This document shows, piece after piece, positions 71-5,572 of a DNA stretch of 10,140 bases. The notes under the pieces were generated by a model. The model was not told where the DNA came from and made no database searches. It saw only the letters and a list, made by a program, of their open reading frames with translations. Origin of the DNA: Phycisphaerales bacterium (GTDB taxonomy: Bacteria > Planctomycetota > Phycisphaerae > Tepidisphaerales > Tepidisphaeraceae); assembly GCA_003153655.1 (NCBI GenBank), contig PMAK01000026.1:1-10140 (forward strand), given 5' to 3'. The position numbers were made by a program, and so were the translations under genes. Position 1 is the stretch's first letter, and each line of letters starts with the position of its first letter.

Positions 71-493
71 TCACCGCGAAAACCGGATCTTCCGATCGCT
101 GGACGATTCCCCTTCATACCACCGGCCCGAACGCAGGCTGATCTTTCGCAAGCCCGTGGTTTTGCATGCGATGAGCAGTTGCTGCTCGAGGCCGGCCAGA
201 AGAAGGGTTTTCAATTGGTAGAGATGAGATGAACTGTCAACCATCACCGTCAGCGTGCCGCGCGTATAGCCTTCCAGAGCGCAATGCTCGCTGAGAAGTT
301 CCGGAACCAACTGGCCCCAATATGCGGCGATTTTCTCCAGCTTCGTCTGACGCTTGGCGACCGACTGCTTGAAAAAATCCAGCATCTCTTTCCCAAGCTC
401 AACGGCAATCGGTTTGGTTTGCGATTTGAACCGGTGCATTCGCCGGAGTTCATCGACGGATTGAGATGCTTTTCCCGGCAAGTTGCTTGGCAT
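71..493 (-). CDS. dciA: DUF721 / DciA-type replicative helicase loader
   Basis: A 140-residue cytoplasmic protein. Residues about 50-125 fit the DUF721 (DciA) domain: an amphipathic helix ending in W59, a short segment, then a beta stretch (about 80-86, LTVMVD), a Ser-rich turn, a helix with L95 and following leucines, and a closing ISLRSG strand (118-123). DciA is known as the ancestral bacterial loader of the DnaB helicase, used where DnaC or DnaI is absent. The basic N-terminal 45 residues and the charged tail look disordered. The ATG at 493 has an AGG eight bases upstream; a second in-frame ATG at residue 19 is possible. It is the last of three same-strand genes, nine bases after the stop of the GT-C gene, in the dnaN operon, which fits a replication role. 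The domain call is from visible pattern, not a profile search. Confidence 0.82.
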   Translation of the reverse strand: MPSNLPGKASQSVDELRRMHRFKSQTKPIAVELGKEMLDFFKQSVAKRQTKLEKIAAYWGQLVPELLSEHCALEGYTRGTLTVMVDSSSHLYQLKTLLLAGLEQQLLIACKTTGLRKISLRSGRWYEGESSSDRKIRFSR

Positions 494-502
494 GGCGAAA
501 AC

Positions 503-1594
503 CTAACTGCAATAACGAACGCCGACGACACCGATGTAAAACAGCACCGCGACAAGGGGAATATACAGCCACGGACTCGCCGGCAGAAATCTTCGCCATG
601 CGTACGCCAGCGCCGGCAGCGCGGGAATCATGAATCGGGGAAAATGATTGAATCCCCACGCGCCGGGACCGAGGCCGATGCAGAGGATGAAGAGCGTGTT
701 CAGCGCGAGCCAGGTGAACGCGAGCAGGTCGGTCGGGGAATTTCTGCGGGAAAGAATGATGCATCCGCCGATGCAGGCCGCGACGTGCGCAACAATGTAA
801 ATCCATCGCCACCACCCGACGTGCCCGTGCAGCGTCATCCACCAGATGGAGTGCAGCGGCCAGGTGAATATCTGCCCGCCATACGCTCGCGGTGAATTGA
901 CGTAGACGCTGACGCCGTGAAACATCCCGCCGGTAATCGGGCGAACGACGAACATTCCCACGACGAAGACGAGCACGGCACAGATCGCGGTAAGCAATCC
1001 GCGATGAAGACGTCCGCGAGCGAATTGCTCAAGCAATAGGCCGATCAGTGCGAAAGCCGCGACGGGTCGGGTCAGTATGGATAAACCGAATACAATGCCT
1101 CCCGCAGCAGGCTGGTTTCGGCGAGCCAGGAGCAATCCGAGCATCATCAGCGCCAGCACCGGCGCTTCGCTCATCGCCAGCGACATATTGATCCAAGCGT
1201 GTGGCAGCGCCAATCCCACGGCCCATCCAATGCGACGATCCTCAAACACAACGGCGGACAGCGCCGCAGCCGCGCCGGCGCCAATGAATGCCACAGCCAG
1301 CGCGGACGCCGAAAAGGATAGCCGCGTGATCAGGTGCGTGATGGCGATGAGCATCGGATAGCCGGGAAAGACGCGCGTGTCGTATTCATCCATCGCGCCT
1401 CGTTCACCGAGCAACGCCGCGGCCATGTGTTTGTAGCTCGCGCCATCGCCTTTGTTTGAATAGGTTTCCAGCGAGATGTGGAAAAACGAAATGACCGTGA
1501 GGAATATCGCCAGATGAATCAGCGACGCGCTCGCCCCGATTGCCAGCACATCACCAGCGGCCACACGCCCGCGGGCTCCGCCGCCTCGGCTCAC
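503..1594 (-). CDS. Polytopic GT-C-like glycosyltransferase (PIG-V/ArnT-like)
   Basis: A 363-residue integral membrane protein with around nine or ten hydrophobic segments. The first membrane helix lies at about residues 16-40. It is followed by a loop with a lone acidic residue, D50 (GDGASY), then DTRVFPGYP (72-80) and, between later helices, SEAP (142-145) and TRP (175-177). A loop-1 Asp, an FPxYP stretch and a SE(A/S) motif are typical of GT-C fold transferases that use polyprenyl-phosphate sugars (PIG-V/GT39-like), so D50 is the likely catalytic base; donor and acceptor are unknown. The start is GTG at 1594, whose GTGA overlaps the dnaN TGA, so translational coupling is likely. No other start has better support. 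A membrane glycosyltransferase between dnaN and dciA is out of place functionally. The exact family is uncertain. Confidence 0.72.
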   Translation of the reverse strand: MSRGGGARGRVAAGDVLAIGASASLIHLAIFLTVISFFHISLETYSNKGDGASYKHMAAALLGERGAMDEYDTRVFPGYPMLIAITHLITRLSFSASALAVAFIGAGAAAALSAVVFEDRRIGWAVGLALPHAWINMSLAMSEAPVLALMMLGLLLARRNQPAAGGIVFGLSILTRPVAAFALIGLLLEQFARGRLHRGLLTAICAVLVFVVGMFVVRPITGGMFHGVSVYVNSPRAYGGQIFTWPLHSIWWMTLHGHVGWWRWIYIVAHVAACIGGCIILSRRNSPTDLLAFTWLALNTLFILCIGLGPGAWGFNHFPRFMIPALPALAYAWRRFLPASPWLYIPLVAVLFYIGVVGVRYCS

Positions 1595-2697
1595 TGCAGA
1601 TTCACGGGCATGATGACGTACAGGAAATTCGGGCCGGCCTTCAGCAGGCCCGGGCGATTGGGGGCCGTCAATTCCAGGCTGATCTCATCCGTATCCACGA
1701 CGCGCAGGGCATCGACCAGAAAAATCGGATTGAACCCGATCTCGACATCCGCTCCCTCAAATTTGCAGGGAAAATTAATGGTCGCCTCGCCGCTCTCCGG
1801 CGACCGGCTGGTGAGGACCAGCCCCTTCTTCGTAAACGCCAGTCGAACGCCACGGCTTTCTTCGGTCGTCAGCAGGGCCGCCCGGCGGATGGCGCTGTTA
1901 AAATCCGCCGTGGATGCCGACATCTTCTTATCCGCATCCTTGGGAATCACATCGTCGTATGGCGGGAATTGTCCTTCAACCAGATTGCTCGTCAGCGTCG
2001 CCCGGCTCGTATGGAAGATCACTTGGTTTTCACGGATCTGAATATCAACCATCTCCGCCGGATCATCCACGAACTTCTCGATCAACTGCAGCGCCTTGGC
2101 CGGGATGATCGCCTTCTTGCCATCCTTATCGAGCTTGTCGCCGGCTGCCAGATCGCCCTTGGCCATCGCCAATCGCCGGCCATCCGTTGAAACCAGCGAA
2201 ATCTTTTTCGCCTTCAGCACCACCAGCACGCCATTGAATGCGTATCGCGTGCTCTCCTTGGCGGCGGCAAAAAGCGTCTGGCTGATGAGCTGCTTCAGCG
2301 CACCGCCCGGCAGTTGCACATCCGCTTCGCCTTCAAAATCAGGAATGGGTGGAAAATCTGTCGCCTTCTGCGTGAAGATTTTGAAATGCGAATCCTGCCC
2401 CCGAATATTGGCTGTGTCGCCCGTCGTCTCGATGGAGAGCGTATCGTCGATGCTTTCACGAACGATGTCGCGGAGCTTGTCCGCAGGAACCAGTGTCTCG
2501 CCGGCCTGTTCAATCTGCACCTGTTCATCGCGGTATCGGATGGCCACTTCCAGATCCGTCGCCGCGACGATCAGGGCATTATCTTCAGCCGTCAGTTTCA
2601 GACACTGCAAAACGGGCTTGGGCGTTCGAGCGGCCACAACGGTGCCTGCGAGGTTCAGCGCATCAAGGAGCGCTCCGCGATTACAATTTACTTTCAT
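1591..2697 (-). CDS. dnaN: DNA polymerase III sliding clamp, beta subunit
   Basis: A complete 368-residue clamp, the usual length of 365-375. It begins MKVNCNRGALLDAL, contains the characteristic TPKPVLQ (residue about 25 onward), a central STDGRRLAMA, and ends YVIMPVNLQ, matching the conserved C-terminal MPxxL that lies by the partner-binding groove. Three clamp folds of about 120 residues each are expected; the protein dimerises into a ring around DNA and tethers polymerase III. The ATG at 2697 has a clear AAAGG at 2706-2710, eight bases away, which fixes the start. It is the first gene of a minus-strand unit (dnaN, GT-C gene, dciA) and borders the putative origin, so it would be copied co-directionally with a fork leaving the origin. 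No dnaA or recF is adjacent in this window. Confidence 0.98.
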   Translation of the reverse strand: MKVNCNRGALLDALNLAGTVVAARTPKPVLQCLKLTAEDNALIVAATDLEVAIRYRDEQVQIEQAGETLVPADKLRDIVRESIDDTLSIETTGDTANIRGQDSHFKIFTQKATDFPPIPDFEGEADVQLPGGALKQLISQTLFAAAKESTRYAFNGVLVVLKAKKISLVSTDGRRLAMAKGDLAAGDKLDKDGKKAIIPAKALQLIEKFVDDPAEMVDIQIRENQVIFHTSRATLTSNLVEGQFPPYDDVIPKDADKKMSASTADFNSAIRRAALLTTEESRGVRLAFTKKGLVLTSRSPESGEATINFPCKFEGADVEIGFNPIFLVDALRVVDTDEISLELTAPNRPGLLKAGPNFLYVIMPVNLQ

Positions 2698-2769
2698 GAG
2701 CCGGGCCTTTCGCTATTCTCCAGATCAACGTGATCCGCATCCCCTCCAAGGGGGAAAAGAGGACTGCGG

Positions 2770-2798
2770 AGTGTAACTACACTACTTTGATATTGAAA
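2770..2798 (-). promoter_or_regulatory. Possible dnaN promoter inside the origin region
   Basis: On the minus strand a TTTCAA (2798-2793) and a TACACT (2775-2770) are spaced by 17 bases and resemble -35 and -10 hexamers (3/6 and 4/6 matches to the sigma-70 consensus). Transcription would start near 2763, leaving a leader of about 65 bases before the dnaN ATG. The hexamers overlap the A+T-rich tract of the putative origin, so initiation and dnaN expression could interfere. The match is modest and could be chance in A+T-rich DNA. Confidence 0.28.
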
Positions 2799-2808
2799 CT
2801 TTATAAGA
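2775..2808. other. A+T-rich tract, candidate DNA unwinding element
   Basis: About three quarters of these bases are A or T, in sharp contrast to the G+C-rich coding DNA on both sides. It abuts the trinucleotide run at 2809-2829 on the side away from the DnaA box, the position where strand opening is expected. It is bracketed by a short inverted repeat, ACTACT at 2781-2786 and AGTAGT at 2810-2815. Confidence 0.5.
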
Positions 2809-2829
2809 TAGTAGTCTTAGTGGTAGTGG
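2809..2829 (-). other. DnaA-trio-like trinucleotide run
   Basis: The plus strand reads in phase TAG TAG TCT TAG TGG TAG TGG, i.e. four TAG and two TGG among seven triplets. Read 3' to 5' this is GAT repeats, the DnaA-trio signature through which the DnaA filament engages single-stranded DNA. On the other strand the run reads CCACTACCACTAAGACTACTA starting nine bases beyond the DnaA box TTATCCACA, the same order and polarity as the Bacillus subtilis unwinding module. The triplet phase is visible directly; function is inferred. Confidence 0.55.
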
Positions 2830-2838
2830 CTGTTGATT

Positions 2839-2847
2839 TGTGGATAA
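2839..2847 (-). promoter_or_regulatory. DnaA box (perfect consensus)
   Basis: TGTGGATAA on the plus strand is TTATCCACA on the minus strand, an exact match to the high-affinity DnaA box. It points toward the trinucleotide run and dnaN, and nine bases separate it from the run. A single 9-mer can occur by chance, but this one lies in the non-coding gap next to dnaN. Confidence 0.72.
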
Positions 2848-2874
2848 GTTCCGGCGATTTCAGCTAAGTCTTTT

Positions 2875-2902
2875 TTGTGCCTGAACATGGGTCGGCTATT
2901 AT
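2875..2902 (+). promoter_or_regulatory. Possible promoter for the rightward unit
   Basis: TTGTGC (2875-2880, 3/6 to the -35 consensus) and TATTAT (2897-2902, 5/6 to the -10 consensus) are separated by 16 bases. Transcription would start near 2909 and run rightward through the second DnaA box into the gene at 3077 and then dinG, with a leader of roughly 170 bases. No closer candidate upstream of 3077 looked better. Confidence 0.28.
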
Positions 2903-2913
2903 AGGACTCTAGA

Positions 2914-2922
2914 GGTGGATAA
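2914..2922 (-). promoter_or_regulatory. DnaA box, one mismatch
   Basis: GGTGGATAA on the plus strand is TTATCCACC on the minus strand, differing from the consensus only in the last base. It has the same orientation as the perfect box 75 bases away, which supports both being part of one DnaA-binding cluster. Confidence 0.5.
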
Positions 2923-3049
2923 AGTGTTGGCTCTGTTTTGGTTGAACCGGCTGCGAAACCGAGTTTTGGCGACAGACAGTCCAGGGGCAACGCTTGTACT
3001 GTTCGTAAGCCTGATCTTTAGCGATCTCTTCGCGGCAGGTTAGATCAAG

Positions 3050-3058
3050 TTTTCCACG
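3050..3058 (+). promoter_or_regulatory. Weak DnaA box-like site
   Basis: TTTTCCACG differs from TTATCCACA at positions 3 and 9. It lies in the opposite orientation to the two better boxes, close to the start of the gene at 3077, and a still weaker TTATCGGCA follows at 3061-3069. It could mark the right edge of the DnaA-binding region. Confidence 0.25.
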
Positions 3059-3076
3059 GGTTATCGGCACTACCTG

Positions 3077-3523
3077 ATGAATGAGCCGACCGGCCCGAAA
3101 AAGATAAGGCATATTTGGGATATGAGCGCTCGCTGGCTCGTCTATCTTTGGGCATTTCCGATCAGGGCCCTGGGCCTGTGCGCGGCGGCCATCGTCGCGC
3201 TCACCGGCGGTGAAACACGCGTCGTCGATGGCGTTCTCGAAGTCTCCGGCGGTGCGGCCGACTTTTGCCTCCGGCGAATCGTCGGATTGGTATTACGCGG
3301 CGGGGCATCCGCGATGACCTTGGGTCACGTCGTACTTGCTAGGAGTCCAGATCTGCTCCTCATCACCCGCGCGCACGAACGCGTTCACGTTCGTCAATGC
3401 GAGCGGTGGGGGCCTCTCTTTATTCCCGCGTATGTCTTCGCCTCGCTCTGGGCGTGGGTGACGGGGCGGCGGCCATACCGGGATAATTTCTTCGAGCGGC
3501 AGGCTTTTCAGCTTGCGGGGTGA
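3077..3523 (+). CDS. Small membrane protein with HExxH...E metallopeptidase-like signature
   Basis: A 148-residue protein of unassigned function. A hydrophobic segment at about 19-43 is followed by a GGE-x-RVVDGVLE region, then SAMTLGHVVLARS (78-90), then HERVHVRQ with H100, E101, H104 and Q107, a hydrophobic stretch (about 112-128) and finally YRDNFFERQAF with E140. H100/E101/H104 plus downstream E140 has the form of a gluzincin zinc site, and similar short proteins with HExxHxRQ, WGPLF and a final (P/F)-x-E-R-x-A are known to me as uncharacterised bacterial proteins. Catalysis is not established. The ATG at 3077 lacks a good ribosome site; the ATG at 3122 (residue 16), just before the first hydrophobic segment, is an alternative start. 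It stands 15 bases before dinG on the same strand and next to the putative origin. Confidence 0.78.
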   Translation: MNEPTGPKKIRHIWDMSARWLVYLWAFPIRALGLCAAAIVALTGGETRVVDGVLEVSGGAADFCLRRIVGLVLRGGASAMTLGHVVLARSPDLLLITRAHERVHVRQCERWGPLFIPAYVFASLWAWVTGRRPYRDNFFERQAFQLAG

Positions 3524-3538
3524 TACCCTCAATATCTC

Positions 3539-5572
3539 ATGTCCACTGCGCCGACGTTAGACGCGATTCTCGGCAAGGACGGCGCCATCGCCCGCCGGCT
3601 CGGGGATTTGTACGAATTCCGCCCAGAGCAACTGGAGATGGCGGCGGCCGTCCGCAGCGCCATCGGCGAAGAGCATCACCTCATGGTCGAGGCCGGCACG
3701 GGCGTCGGAAAATCATTCGCCTATCTTCTTCCGGCAATCGAATACGCCGTCCGCACGAAAAAGCGCGTCGTCATTTCAACGCATACGATTTCCCTCCAGG
3801 AGCAGTTGATCGAGAAAGATATTCCGCTCCTCCGCGCCGTCTATCCCGATGAATTCACCGCGGTCCTCGTAAAAGGACGCGGAAATTTCCTCTGTCAGCG
3901 CCGGCTGGAACAGGCGCGCGGGCGACAGGGAATGCTGATGGATCTGCCGCGGCAGCTCGAATCACTTCATACCATCGAGCAGTGGGCCCAATCAACCAAA
4001 GATGGAACGCTGGCGACGGTGCCGGCCCTTTCGGATCCATCGGTCTGGGAGCGCGTCTGCGCCGAACACGGCAATTGCCTGGGGAAGAAGTGCAAGTTTT
4101 ACAACGACTGTTTCTGGCAGGCCGCCAAGCGGCGGATGAACAGCGGAAATATCCTGGTGGTCAATCACGCCCTCTTTTTCGCGGACCTGGCACTGCGAAT
4201 CTCCGGCGTCAATTACCTTCCCAAATATGATGTCGCCATCCTCGATGAAGCACACACCGTGGAAGACGTGGCGGCCAGCCATTTCGGGCTGAACGTTTCG
4301 GAGCATCGCCTGAAATATCAATTGCGAACCCTGTATGACCCGATCCGCGGCAAGGGATTGCTCAGCACCCACGGCGCGGTTGTGAACGATGCCATCGACG
4401 ACATCGTGGAAATCCATCAGCGGCTGGACGGATTTTTCGAGAATTGCGTGGAATGGCAGAAAGAACATGGCCGATCCAACGGCCGGGTACATGAAGCGGG
4501 AATCGTCGAAAACAATTTATCACCGCTGCTGCATAAATTGTCGCTGCACCTCAAAGCCGCGCTGGCCACGATTCAGAATCAGGAGGAAATCTCCGAACTA
4601 ACCGCGATGGCGGACAAGGTGAGCCTGCTGGCCGAGGAGTTGGAAGCCATCGTCTCGCAACGGATGCCGGACGCGGTTTACTGGATGGAAGTGGGCGGGC
4701 GGTTGCACCGGAATGTCAGCCTGCATGCCGCTCCGGTGAATGTGGCCCAGGGCCTGAAGGCGCATCTGTTTGGAAAAGTCCCCAGCGTCATTATGTGTTC
4801 CGCGACGTTGTGCACGGCGGAAAAACGACCGGCGAAAAAGCGGGAGGCGCAAGCCCCGGTTGACGTGGCAAGTGATTCATCTTTTAATTATATGATCTCT
4901 CGGCTCGGCGCGGAGGGGGCGCAAACACTAGCGCTCGGCTCGCCGTTTGACTACAAAAAACAAGTAACGCTCTACATCGAATCCGATCTTCCCGAGCCAA
5001 ACGACACTCAGCGATTCGCCCCCGCAGCCTGCGAAAAAATCATCGAGTATCTCAAACAAACCAACGGCGGCGCGTTCGTCCTCTTCACCAGCTACAGCGC
5101 CCTTCTCGACGCAGCCAAGCGCCTCAAAGCTCCGCTCGCCGGACTGGGCTATCCAATGCTCGTCCACGGTGAAGGCACGCCGCGGAAAACGCTCCTCGAT
5201 CGGTTTCGTACCACACAAAATGCCGTCCTCCTCGGCACCTCCAGCTTCTGGCAGGGGATCGACGTGCGCGGCGACGCGTTGCGAAACGTCATCATCGTCA
5301 AGCTGCCGTTCTCCGTTCCCGATGAACCCGTCGTCGAAGCCCGCCTCGAAGCGATCACCCGCGCCGGCGGAAATCCGTTCATCGATTATTCGGTCCCTGA
5401 AGCCATCATCCGGCTTAAACAGGGATTCGGCCGTCTGATCCGCAGCAAGACCGATCGCGGAATCGTGGTCATTCTCGACAGCCGGATCAAAACCAAGCGT
5501 TACGGGAAACGTTTTCTCGACGCGCTTCCGCCGAGCAATGTGGTCATACGCGAGCGAAAGCGTGATTCATGA
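3539..5572 (+). CDS. dinG: DinG-family ATP-dependent iron-sulfur DNA helicase
   Basis: A 677-residue superfamily 2 helicase of the XPD/DinG group, which unwinds DNA 5' to 3' and resolves structures such as R-loops, D-loops and G-quadruplexes during repair. Visible motifs: FRPEQ (27-31, Q-motif region), Walker A AGTGVGKS (52-59), motif Ia STHTISLQEQL (80-90), iron-sulfur ligands C119, C180, C185 and C191 (the last three spaced 5 and 6, as in Escherichia coli DinG), DEAH (236-239), a motif V-like SSFWQGIDVRGD, and motif VI QGFGRLIR (628-635). There is no N-terminal exonuclease domain. An extra cysteine, C174, lies near the cluster. The ATG at 3539 comes 15 bases after the upstream stop, with no strong ribosome site. 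Its TGA overlaps the ATG of the next gene. Confidence 0.95.
   Translation: MSTAPTLDAILGKDGAIARRLGDLYEFRPEQLEMAAAVRSAIGEEHHLMVEAGTGVGKSFAYLLPAIEYAVRTKKRVVISTHTISLQEQLIEKDIPLLRAVYPDEFTAVLVKGRGNFLCQRRLEQARGRQGMLMDLPRQLESLHTIEQWAQSTKDGTLATVPALSDPSVWERVCAEHGNCLGKKCKFYNDCFWQAAKRRMNSGNILVVNHALFFADLALRISGVNYLPKYDVAILDEAHTVEDVAASHFGLNVSEHRLKYQLRTLYDPIRGKGLLSTHGAVVNDAIDDIVEIHQRLDGFFENCVEWQKEHGRSNGRVHEAGIVENNLSPLLHKLSLHLKAALATIQNQEEISELTAMADKVSLLAEELEAIVSQRMPDAVYWMEVGGRLHRNVSLHAAPVNVAQGLKAHLFGKVPSVIMCSATLCTAEKRPAKKREAQAPVDVASDSSFNYMISRLGAEGAQTLALGSPFDYKKQVTLYIESDLPEPNDTQRFAPAACEKIIEYLKQTNGGAFVLFTSYSALLDAAKRLKAPLAGLGYPMLVHGEGTPRKTLLDRFRTTQNAVLLGTSSFWQGIDVRGDALRNVIIVKLPFSVPDEPVVEARLEAITRAGGNPFIDYSVPEAIIRLKQGFGRLIRSKTDRGIVVILDSRIKTKRYGKRFLDALPPSNVVIRERKRDS

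Follow-up and report, generated by a model that had tools for sequence, protein, structure and literature searches.

Does the intergenic region upstream of dnaN in a planctomycete contig hold the chromosomal origin of replication and, if so, is that origin opened through DnaA-trios? The window analyzed here is the whole 10,140-nucleotide stretch of DNA, and by dnaN its closest named relatives fall in the Phycisphaerae, with one labelled Tepidisphaeraceae, which agrees with the planctomycete host assumed in an original prediction made from the letters alone. That prediction read a DnaA box, a triplet run and an A+T-rich tract beside dnaN as a likely oriC. Judged from its sequence, the module of around 130 bases upstream of dnaN is very likely (probability about 0.9) the chromosomal oriC of a Tepidisphaeraceae-like planctomycete and, given that it is the origin, DnaA-trios are probably the means by which it is opened. 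Among the papers listed in a literature search, judged by titles and abstract openings, none dealt with planctomycete origin anatomy, and no publication in the literature searched combined DnaA-trio with planctomycet*. If true, this reading provides a precise origin position for a mostly uncultured group with scattered dnaA and dnaN, and the module becomes a handle for locating the origin in draft genomes.

Box, spacer and trios upstream of dnaN

The proximal DnaA box, TTATCCACA, lies on the minus strand at 2847-2839 and is the sole perfect copy in the window; both its coordinates and its letters had been predicted correctly. A distal box with one mismatch, TTATCCACC, was found 75 bp 5′ of it on the same strand (2922-2914), inside the interval of the original prediction (2770..2930) but absent from it. 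Downstream of the proximal box the prediction counted nine bases, AATCAACAG, and then CCA CTA CCA CTA AGA CTA CTA, with CTA in four of seven triplets. This is literally correct, but the nine-base spacer did not stand: the register set by relatives gives a 12-nt spacer, AATCAACAGCCA (2827..2838, minus strand), with a conserved ACAG/CCAG, followed by six DnaA-trios (2809..2826, minus strand). On the box strand these read CTA CCA CTA AGA CTA CTA, starting with the CTA at 2826-2824 and with CTA in four of the six, and on the plus strand 3′-GAT GGT GAT TCT GAT GAT-5′. The order and polarity claimed for a DnaA-trio are present; the published pattern in its strict form is not, as two of the six trios are not A-centred (one is C-centred and one G-centred). 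The A+T-rich tract expected after the trios was also found (2770..2810; 76% A+T, vs. a window mean of 41%). It overlaps the last trio, includes the starting point (2774) of the 40-mer with the highest A+T content in the window, and is presumed to be a continuation of the unwinding region.

Two further elements lie between the boxes. The central palindromic element (2865..2889; consensus TAAGT-N15-ACTTA) has an intact TAAGT arm on the plus strand at 2865-2869 and a decayed opposite arm. On the minus strand at 2898..2907 is a family-level motif, GTCC(G/T)ATAAT, which is weak or absent in the consensus of other families and is possibly a dnaN promoter element or an extra site.

The window has five DnaA boxes with one mismatch or none, against 0.92 expected, and none of 200 shuffles reached five; the module accounts for two of them, and the other three lie elsewhere in the window. 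None of 20,000 local dinucleotide shuffles yielded six in-phase triplets with four CTA. Among 300 whole-window shuffles five contained a perfect box, and none contained a box with at least four CTA.

On the minus strand, dnaN (1591..2697; Pfam PF00712, PF02767 and PF02768), encoding the sliding clamp, is transcribed away from the module, as is a DciA-like ORF encoding a candidate helicase operator (71..493; PF05258, E 1.6e-8). Across the module from dnaN, and divergent from it, lies a plus-strand helicase gene (Helicase_C_2, 3539..5572), the product of which we take to be DinG-like. The plus-strand genes beyond it also run away from the module, so that the genes on both sides diverge from it. 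As in a bacterial oriC, DnaA boxes above chance are found in intergenic DNA beside a replication gene. No RNA family was detected in the window at gathering score, and a scan of 2600-3150 for sigma-70-like promoters found no consensus site. The GC skew of the window itself was discarded as evidence, being dominated by the divergent genes and proving little. The genome holding the window is in 304 contigs (4.65 Mb), with dnaA on a separate contig from dnaN.

Conservation and trio code of the module

Conservation was assessed with R1, a sequence-only model of 130 positions trained on the genomes of 12 relatives, with the window excluded. R1 gave exactly one match in each of 22 of the 26 family genomes, always immediately upstream of dnaN and in its orientation; ten of these 22 genomes were outside the training set, including that of the window (2928-2802, E 1.8e-14). 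Such retention among relatives at one place per chromosome is expected of an oriC and supports the likely-oriC reading. The family layout is nearly gapless: ACA, distal box, the motif GTCCGATAAT, TAAGT..ACTTA, proximal box, spacer and CTA-type trios. The comparison of dnaN upstream regions that had been proposed as a check came out in favor of the prediction, with a spacer carrying ACAG or CCAG that is 12 nt long in 21 of 22 modules, and a box-to-box distance of 75 bp in 20 of 22 and 76 bp in two, one of which (L275) has a poor distal box with three mismatches. We regard the parts of the module, their order and register, their conservation, the single copy per family genome and the linkage to dnaN as established.

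Four family genomes gave no match. One (G011, locus L023) has dnaN but no module upstream of it, with nothing up to E 0.1, and its origin may have moved or diverged. In G015 and G025 dnaN was not found. In the fourth, G024, only 154 bases upstream of dnaN are present before the end of the contig, and they hold a weaker box, TAATCCACA, and a trio-like run, TTA TCA CTA ACT ATA. In a 2.4 Mb sample of G012 there were 138 boxes with at most one mismatch, and only the one upstream of dnaN had three or more CTA among the six triplets after it.

The family motif GTCC(G/T)ATAAT lies at a constant distance from the distal box in family loci L003-L021 and is nearly confined to the family. Its -10-like core, GATAAT, is conserved, and no -35 was found. 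The sequence GTCCGAGAA in L337 resembles it.

Beyond the family, R1 was run at a cut-off of E ≤ 0.001 on a class sample of 298 Phycisphaerae genomes, the 26 family members included. It matched 67 genomes, which are the 22 family genomes and 45 of the 272 others, the latter with weaker copies; 227 of those 272 gave no match. The place of dnaN was listed for 24 of the 45: in 15 the copy lay within 17 kb on the same contig, in eight dnaN was on another contig, and in one (G147) it was 1.17 Mb away, a match set aside as probably due to chance. Seven of the 15 nearby copies lie 36-271 bp upstream of dnaN in its orientation; five, all from family f5, lie 603-748 bp past the dnaN 3′ end and face dnaN, and three (f4/f13) are 12-16 kb from dnaN. 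In G035 the module sits between dnaA and dnaN, so the order dnaA-oriC-dnaN may be ancestral. When R1 was applied to the named loci L061-L063 and L078-L140, a module was found near dnaN in the three nearest relatives, and the 63 other named loci around dnaN gave one weak match, suggesting that many Phycisphaerae have their origin at another place or in a form that has diverged too far.

Next to the module in f5 genomes, a further DnaA box was seen on the opposite strand, accompanied by a palindrome-like element and lacking trios (L283 1362-1440, minus; L284 1697-1758, plus; L286 and L289 1368-1432, both minus).

We aligned 51 modules, comprising the 22 from the family and 29 of the 45 from other families. 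In these 29 the box distance was 75-79 bp in 16, 64-65 bp in four and elsewhere in nine, several of the last having poor boxes. The two clusters are around one helical turn apart, which is suggestive of helical phasing of the box distance in other families; the phasing is not firm, since only two of the four short-spaced modules (L287 and L321) have good boxes at both ends. Between the boxes, TAA..TTA is present in both group consensuses, and TAAGT-N15-ACTTA is the consensus over all 51 rows. Comparison of the column profile of this palindrome with its own reverse complement scored 5.8 at one offset and 1.2 at the next best of 17 tried. With its own row left out, the palindrome of the window is the top-scoring place in the window (16.7, next 10.7). 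As a genome-unique site the palindrome was rejected, since higher scores occur elsewhere in the G012 and G041 samples.

How the trios are read has been described in B. subtilis, where, in the text available of two papers, the proximal box guides a DnaA filament onto 3′-GAT-5′ trios and the distal box acts via a loop, its helical phasing being strict over three turns and, beyond them, still detectable though no longer essential (PMC6669920), and where two bases per trio are captured, by Arg202/Glu228 and Asn187, with C the best-tolerated substitution at the middle of a trio (PMC10721633). The survey of such basal unwinding systems (BUS) used a rule of a box with at most two mismatches facing the trios, a spacer of at most 16 nt and at least three consecutive A-centred trios; it predicted modules in the origins of 1755 of 2070 species, with spacers peaking at 10-13 nt, and planctomyc* is absent from its main text in the form available (PMC8287927). 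A planctomycete BUS is therefore not in itself surprising, and the extension to a new group that the original prediction had put forward is less so than stated. The window has a perfect box and a 12-nt spacer, both within this rule, and its longest run of A-centred trios within 16 nt is one. The module would function as a BUS does, and we call it a variant because its trios depart from the published rule on this one point; runs of three consecutive A-centred trios were found in 13 of the 22 family modules.

Middle bases were counted in the 38 of 51 modules with a clear register, a set in which related genomes are non-independent and the register rule favors a middle A. Trios 3-6 gave A 88, C 49, G 15 and T 0 (of 152), and trios 1-2 gave A 51, G 19, T 4 and C 2 (of 76). 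The tolerance of C in B. subtilis fits trios 3-6 and not trios 1-2, where the mostly-G middles other than A count against the idea that the middle base is read via its amino group. The anchor rule used for the register mis-registers some weak modules (e.g. L311, L330, L337 and L338). Three others (L290, L325 and L326) have a run reading TGATGATG of ambiguous register; their trio region, ACGATGATGATG, holds cytosine-centred trios if in register, or has a shifted register.

GC skew, DnaA and rival explanations

Cumulative GC skew, also proposed as a check, was calculated for three relatives, and its outcome was divided. In the complete genome G041 (3,868,357 bp) the minimum fell at 3.13 Mb, around 30 kb from the module at 3.160 Mb. 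This sample consisted of 29 stretches of 4-7 kb, and 3.13 Mb is the boundary between two of them; nine stretches (3.156-3.704 Mb), including the one with the module, were sampled later to refine the minimum. This boundary was recovered in 1680 of 2000 bootstraps, with 274 at 3.29 Mb, where the curve comes close to its minimum. Skew agreement is shown in this one relative, and it backs the location of the module more than its detailed layout, because the G041 copy matches weakly and its proximal box is degenerate. G012, the sole single-contig genome of the family here (7.19 Mb; 120 stretches of 20 kb), has a weak GC skew (permutation p 0.017) with its minimum at 4.06 Mb, 0.39 Mb from the module at 3.675 Mb. 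Its TA skew (p 0.98) and gene strand bias (p 0.23) gave no signal, and its strand-centred third-position skew (p 0.0076) had a minimum at 6.64 Mb, not matching the module. The skew of G080 (20 stretches of 2 kb) was not significant (p 0.14); its module is at 1.93 Mb, and bootstrap origins fell at 2.14-2.30 Mb (409 of 1000), 2.30-2.46 Mb (292) and 0.86-1.02 Mb (249).

Within the window’s family dnaA is not adjacent to dnaN. For 21 of the 26 family genomes we screened the top-ranking dnaA locus, 67.3 kb in total, and none held a perfect box or a box with trios. One-mismatch boxes numbered 14 in these loci, against about four expected at the G012 rate, and several recur at similar places within the dnaA frame. 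At least two Bac_DnaA-domain matches, some of them short, were seen in 56 of 61 genomes; in many genomes the second match has a full-length frame with E near 1e-45 to 1e-57, and in the window’s family it is on another contig or far from dnaN.

The DnaA of the genome holding the window, truncated C-terminally by the contig end so that domain IV is partial, was aligned to the B. subtilis chain 8btg. Four of the five positions given as causing severe defects in B. subtilis DnaA in the accessible text of PMC10721633 are identical (Asn187, Ile190, Arg202 and Glu228) and the fifth, Ile193, is Val, so that four of these five pocket residues are shown to be kept. Other B. subtilis contacts are changed (Glu183 to Asp, Asn196 to Gly, Lys222 to His and Glu223 to Asp).

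Could the module be a dnaN promoter or operator autoregulated by DnaA, with no origin present and the triplets incidental? Its co-oriented place directly upstream of dnaN in all 22 R1-positive family genomes would suit such a site, as would the conserved -10-like GATAAT. Against this, the f5 copies facing dnaN from beyond its 3′ end and the f4/f13 copies many kilobases away indicate that the module is more than a dnaN promoter; no sigma-70-like promoter was found between 2600 and 3150, the skew minimum of G041 lies beside its module copy, and triplets phase-locked to a box are needless for a promoter. We consider this explanation very improbable. We give equally little credence to a real origin at the dnaA locus or elsewhere, with the module acting as a DnaA-titrating or timing site. 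The single R1 place per family genome and the lack of perfect boxes and trios at the 21 best family dnaA loci argue against it, even though dnaA lies apart from dnaN and is often accompanied by a second DnaA-domain match, dnaA loci are richer in one-mismatch boxes than the G012 rate, and the G012 skew does not point to the module. In G041, both dnaA genes (C1:280-756, at 0.0003 Mb, and C1:966513-966995, at 0.967 Mb) are far from the 3.13 Mb minimum. Bootstrapping put the skew maximum at 0.96-1.34 Mb, a range that includes the better of these two genes (0.967 Mb).

A third explanation accepts the origin and places its opening mainly at the A+T-rich tract, through looping strain as in E. coli, with the trios secondary. 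It draws on the two window trios that depart from the A-centred rule, on the adjacent tract being the A+T maximum of the window, and on the conserved element between the boxes, which recalls the E. coli IHF site (PMC6669920, in the text available). Against it stand the 12-nt locking of trio phase to the box, seen in 21 of 22 family modules, the mainly tolerated C among substitutions in trios 3-6 and the retention of four of five DnaA pocket residues, and we think it unlikely.

Proposed mechanism and known origins

For a DnaA-trio origin at this module we infer DnaA binding, looping, melting and helicase loading as follows. DnaA would bind the perfect proximal box and the distal box, which is 75 bp or about seven helical turns further upstream. 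The DNA between them would loop, raising DnaA near the trios, and the loop may be organized at the central palindrome, which by analogy we guess to be a loop-organizing site comparable to the E. coli IHF site. A DnaA filament would then grow from the proximal box, across the 12-nt spacer and onto the trio strand (3′ to 5′), capturing two bases per trio, and the trios with the adjacent A+T tract would melt. Helicase would be loaded at the melted region, and the DciA-like ORF lies nearby.

More tentatively, the origins of Tepidisphaeraceae and some other Phycisphaerae could form a distinct DnaA-trio build, with boxes at a fixed distance around a palindrome, a protein at the loop apex as counterpart of IHF, and later trios centred on C or A; in Tepidisphaeraceae this origin would have separated from dnaA and remained beside dnaN. 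We find this proposal doubtful. Cytosine would be accepted in the later trios as an amino-group contact with Asn187 predicts, and the proposal is weakened by G, rather than C, being the commonest non-A middle base in trios 1-2. If the module is indeed the origin, it offers natural variation bearing on the biochemical rule of amino-group recognition at the middle of a trio, and the central palindrome points to a possible novel origin protein.

As far as the incC BUS of B. subtilis is described in the text available (PMC6669920; PMC10721633), the module shares with it the order and polarity of box, spacer and trios, the 3′-GAT-5′ consensus, a distal box besides the proximal one, and most DnaA pocket residues. 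In contrast to the tandem pair of boxes 6/7 in incC, the module has one proximal box, with the conserved ACAG-type spacer standing where incC has its second box. Its distal box is at a near-fixed distance, whereas that of B. subtilis works at many, helically phased, and its central palindrome, cytosine-centred later trios and adjacency to dnaN without dnaA also set it apart. With E. coli oriC the module shares distal and proximal boxes and a conserved element between them, where the accessible text of PMC6669920 places the IHF site of E. coli. The element in the module is a palindrome unlike the IHF consensus. Many more DnaA boxes are present in E. coli oriC than in the planctomycete module. 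Origins have reportedly been predicted in bulk by DoriC/Ori-Finder. Those predictions, and those of the BUS survey in its available text (PMC8287927), resemble the module in having a box and trios near a replication gene, and the window copy differs from those of the survey in lying below its minimum of three consecutive A-centred trios.
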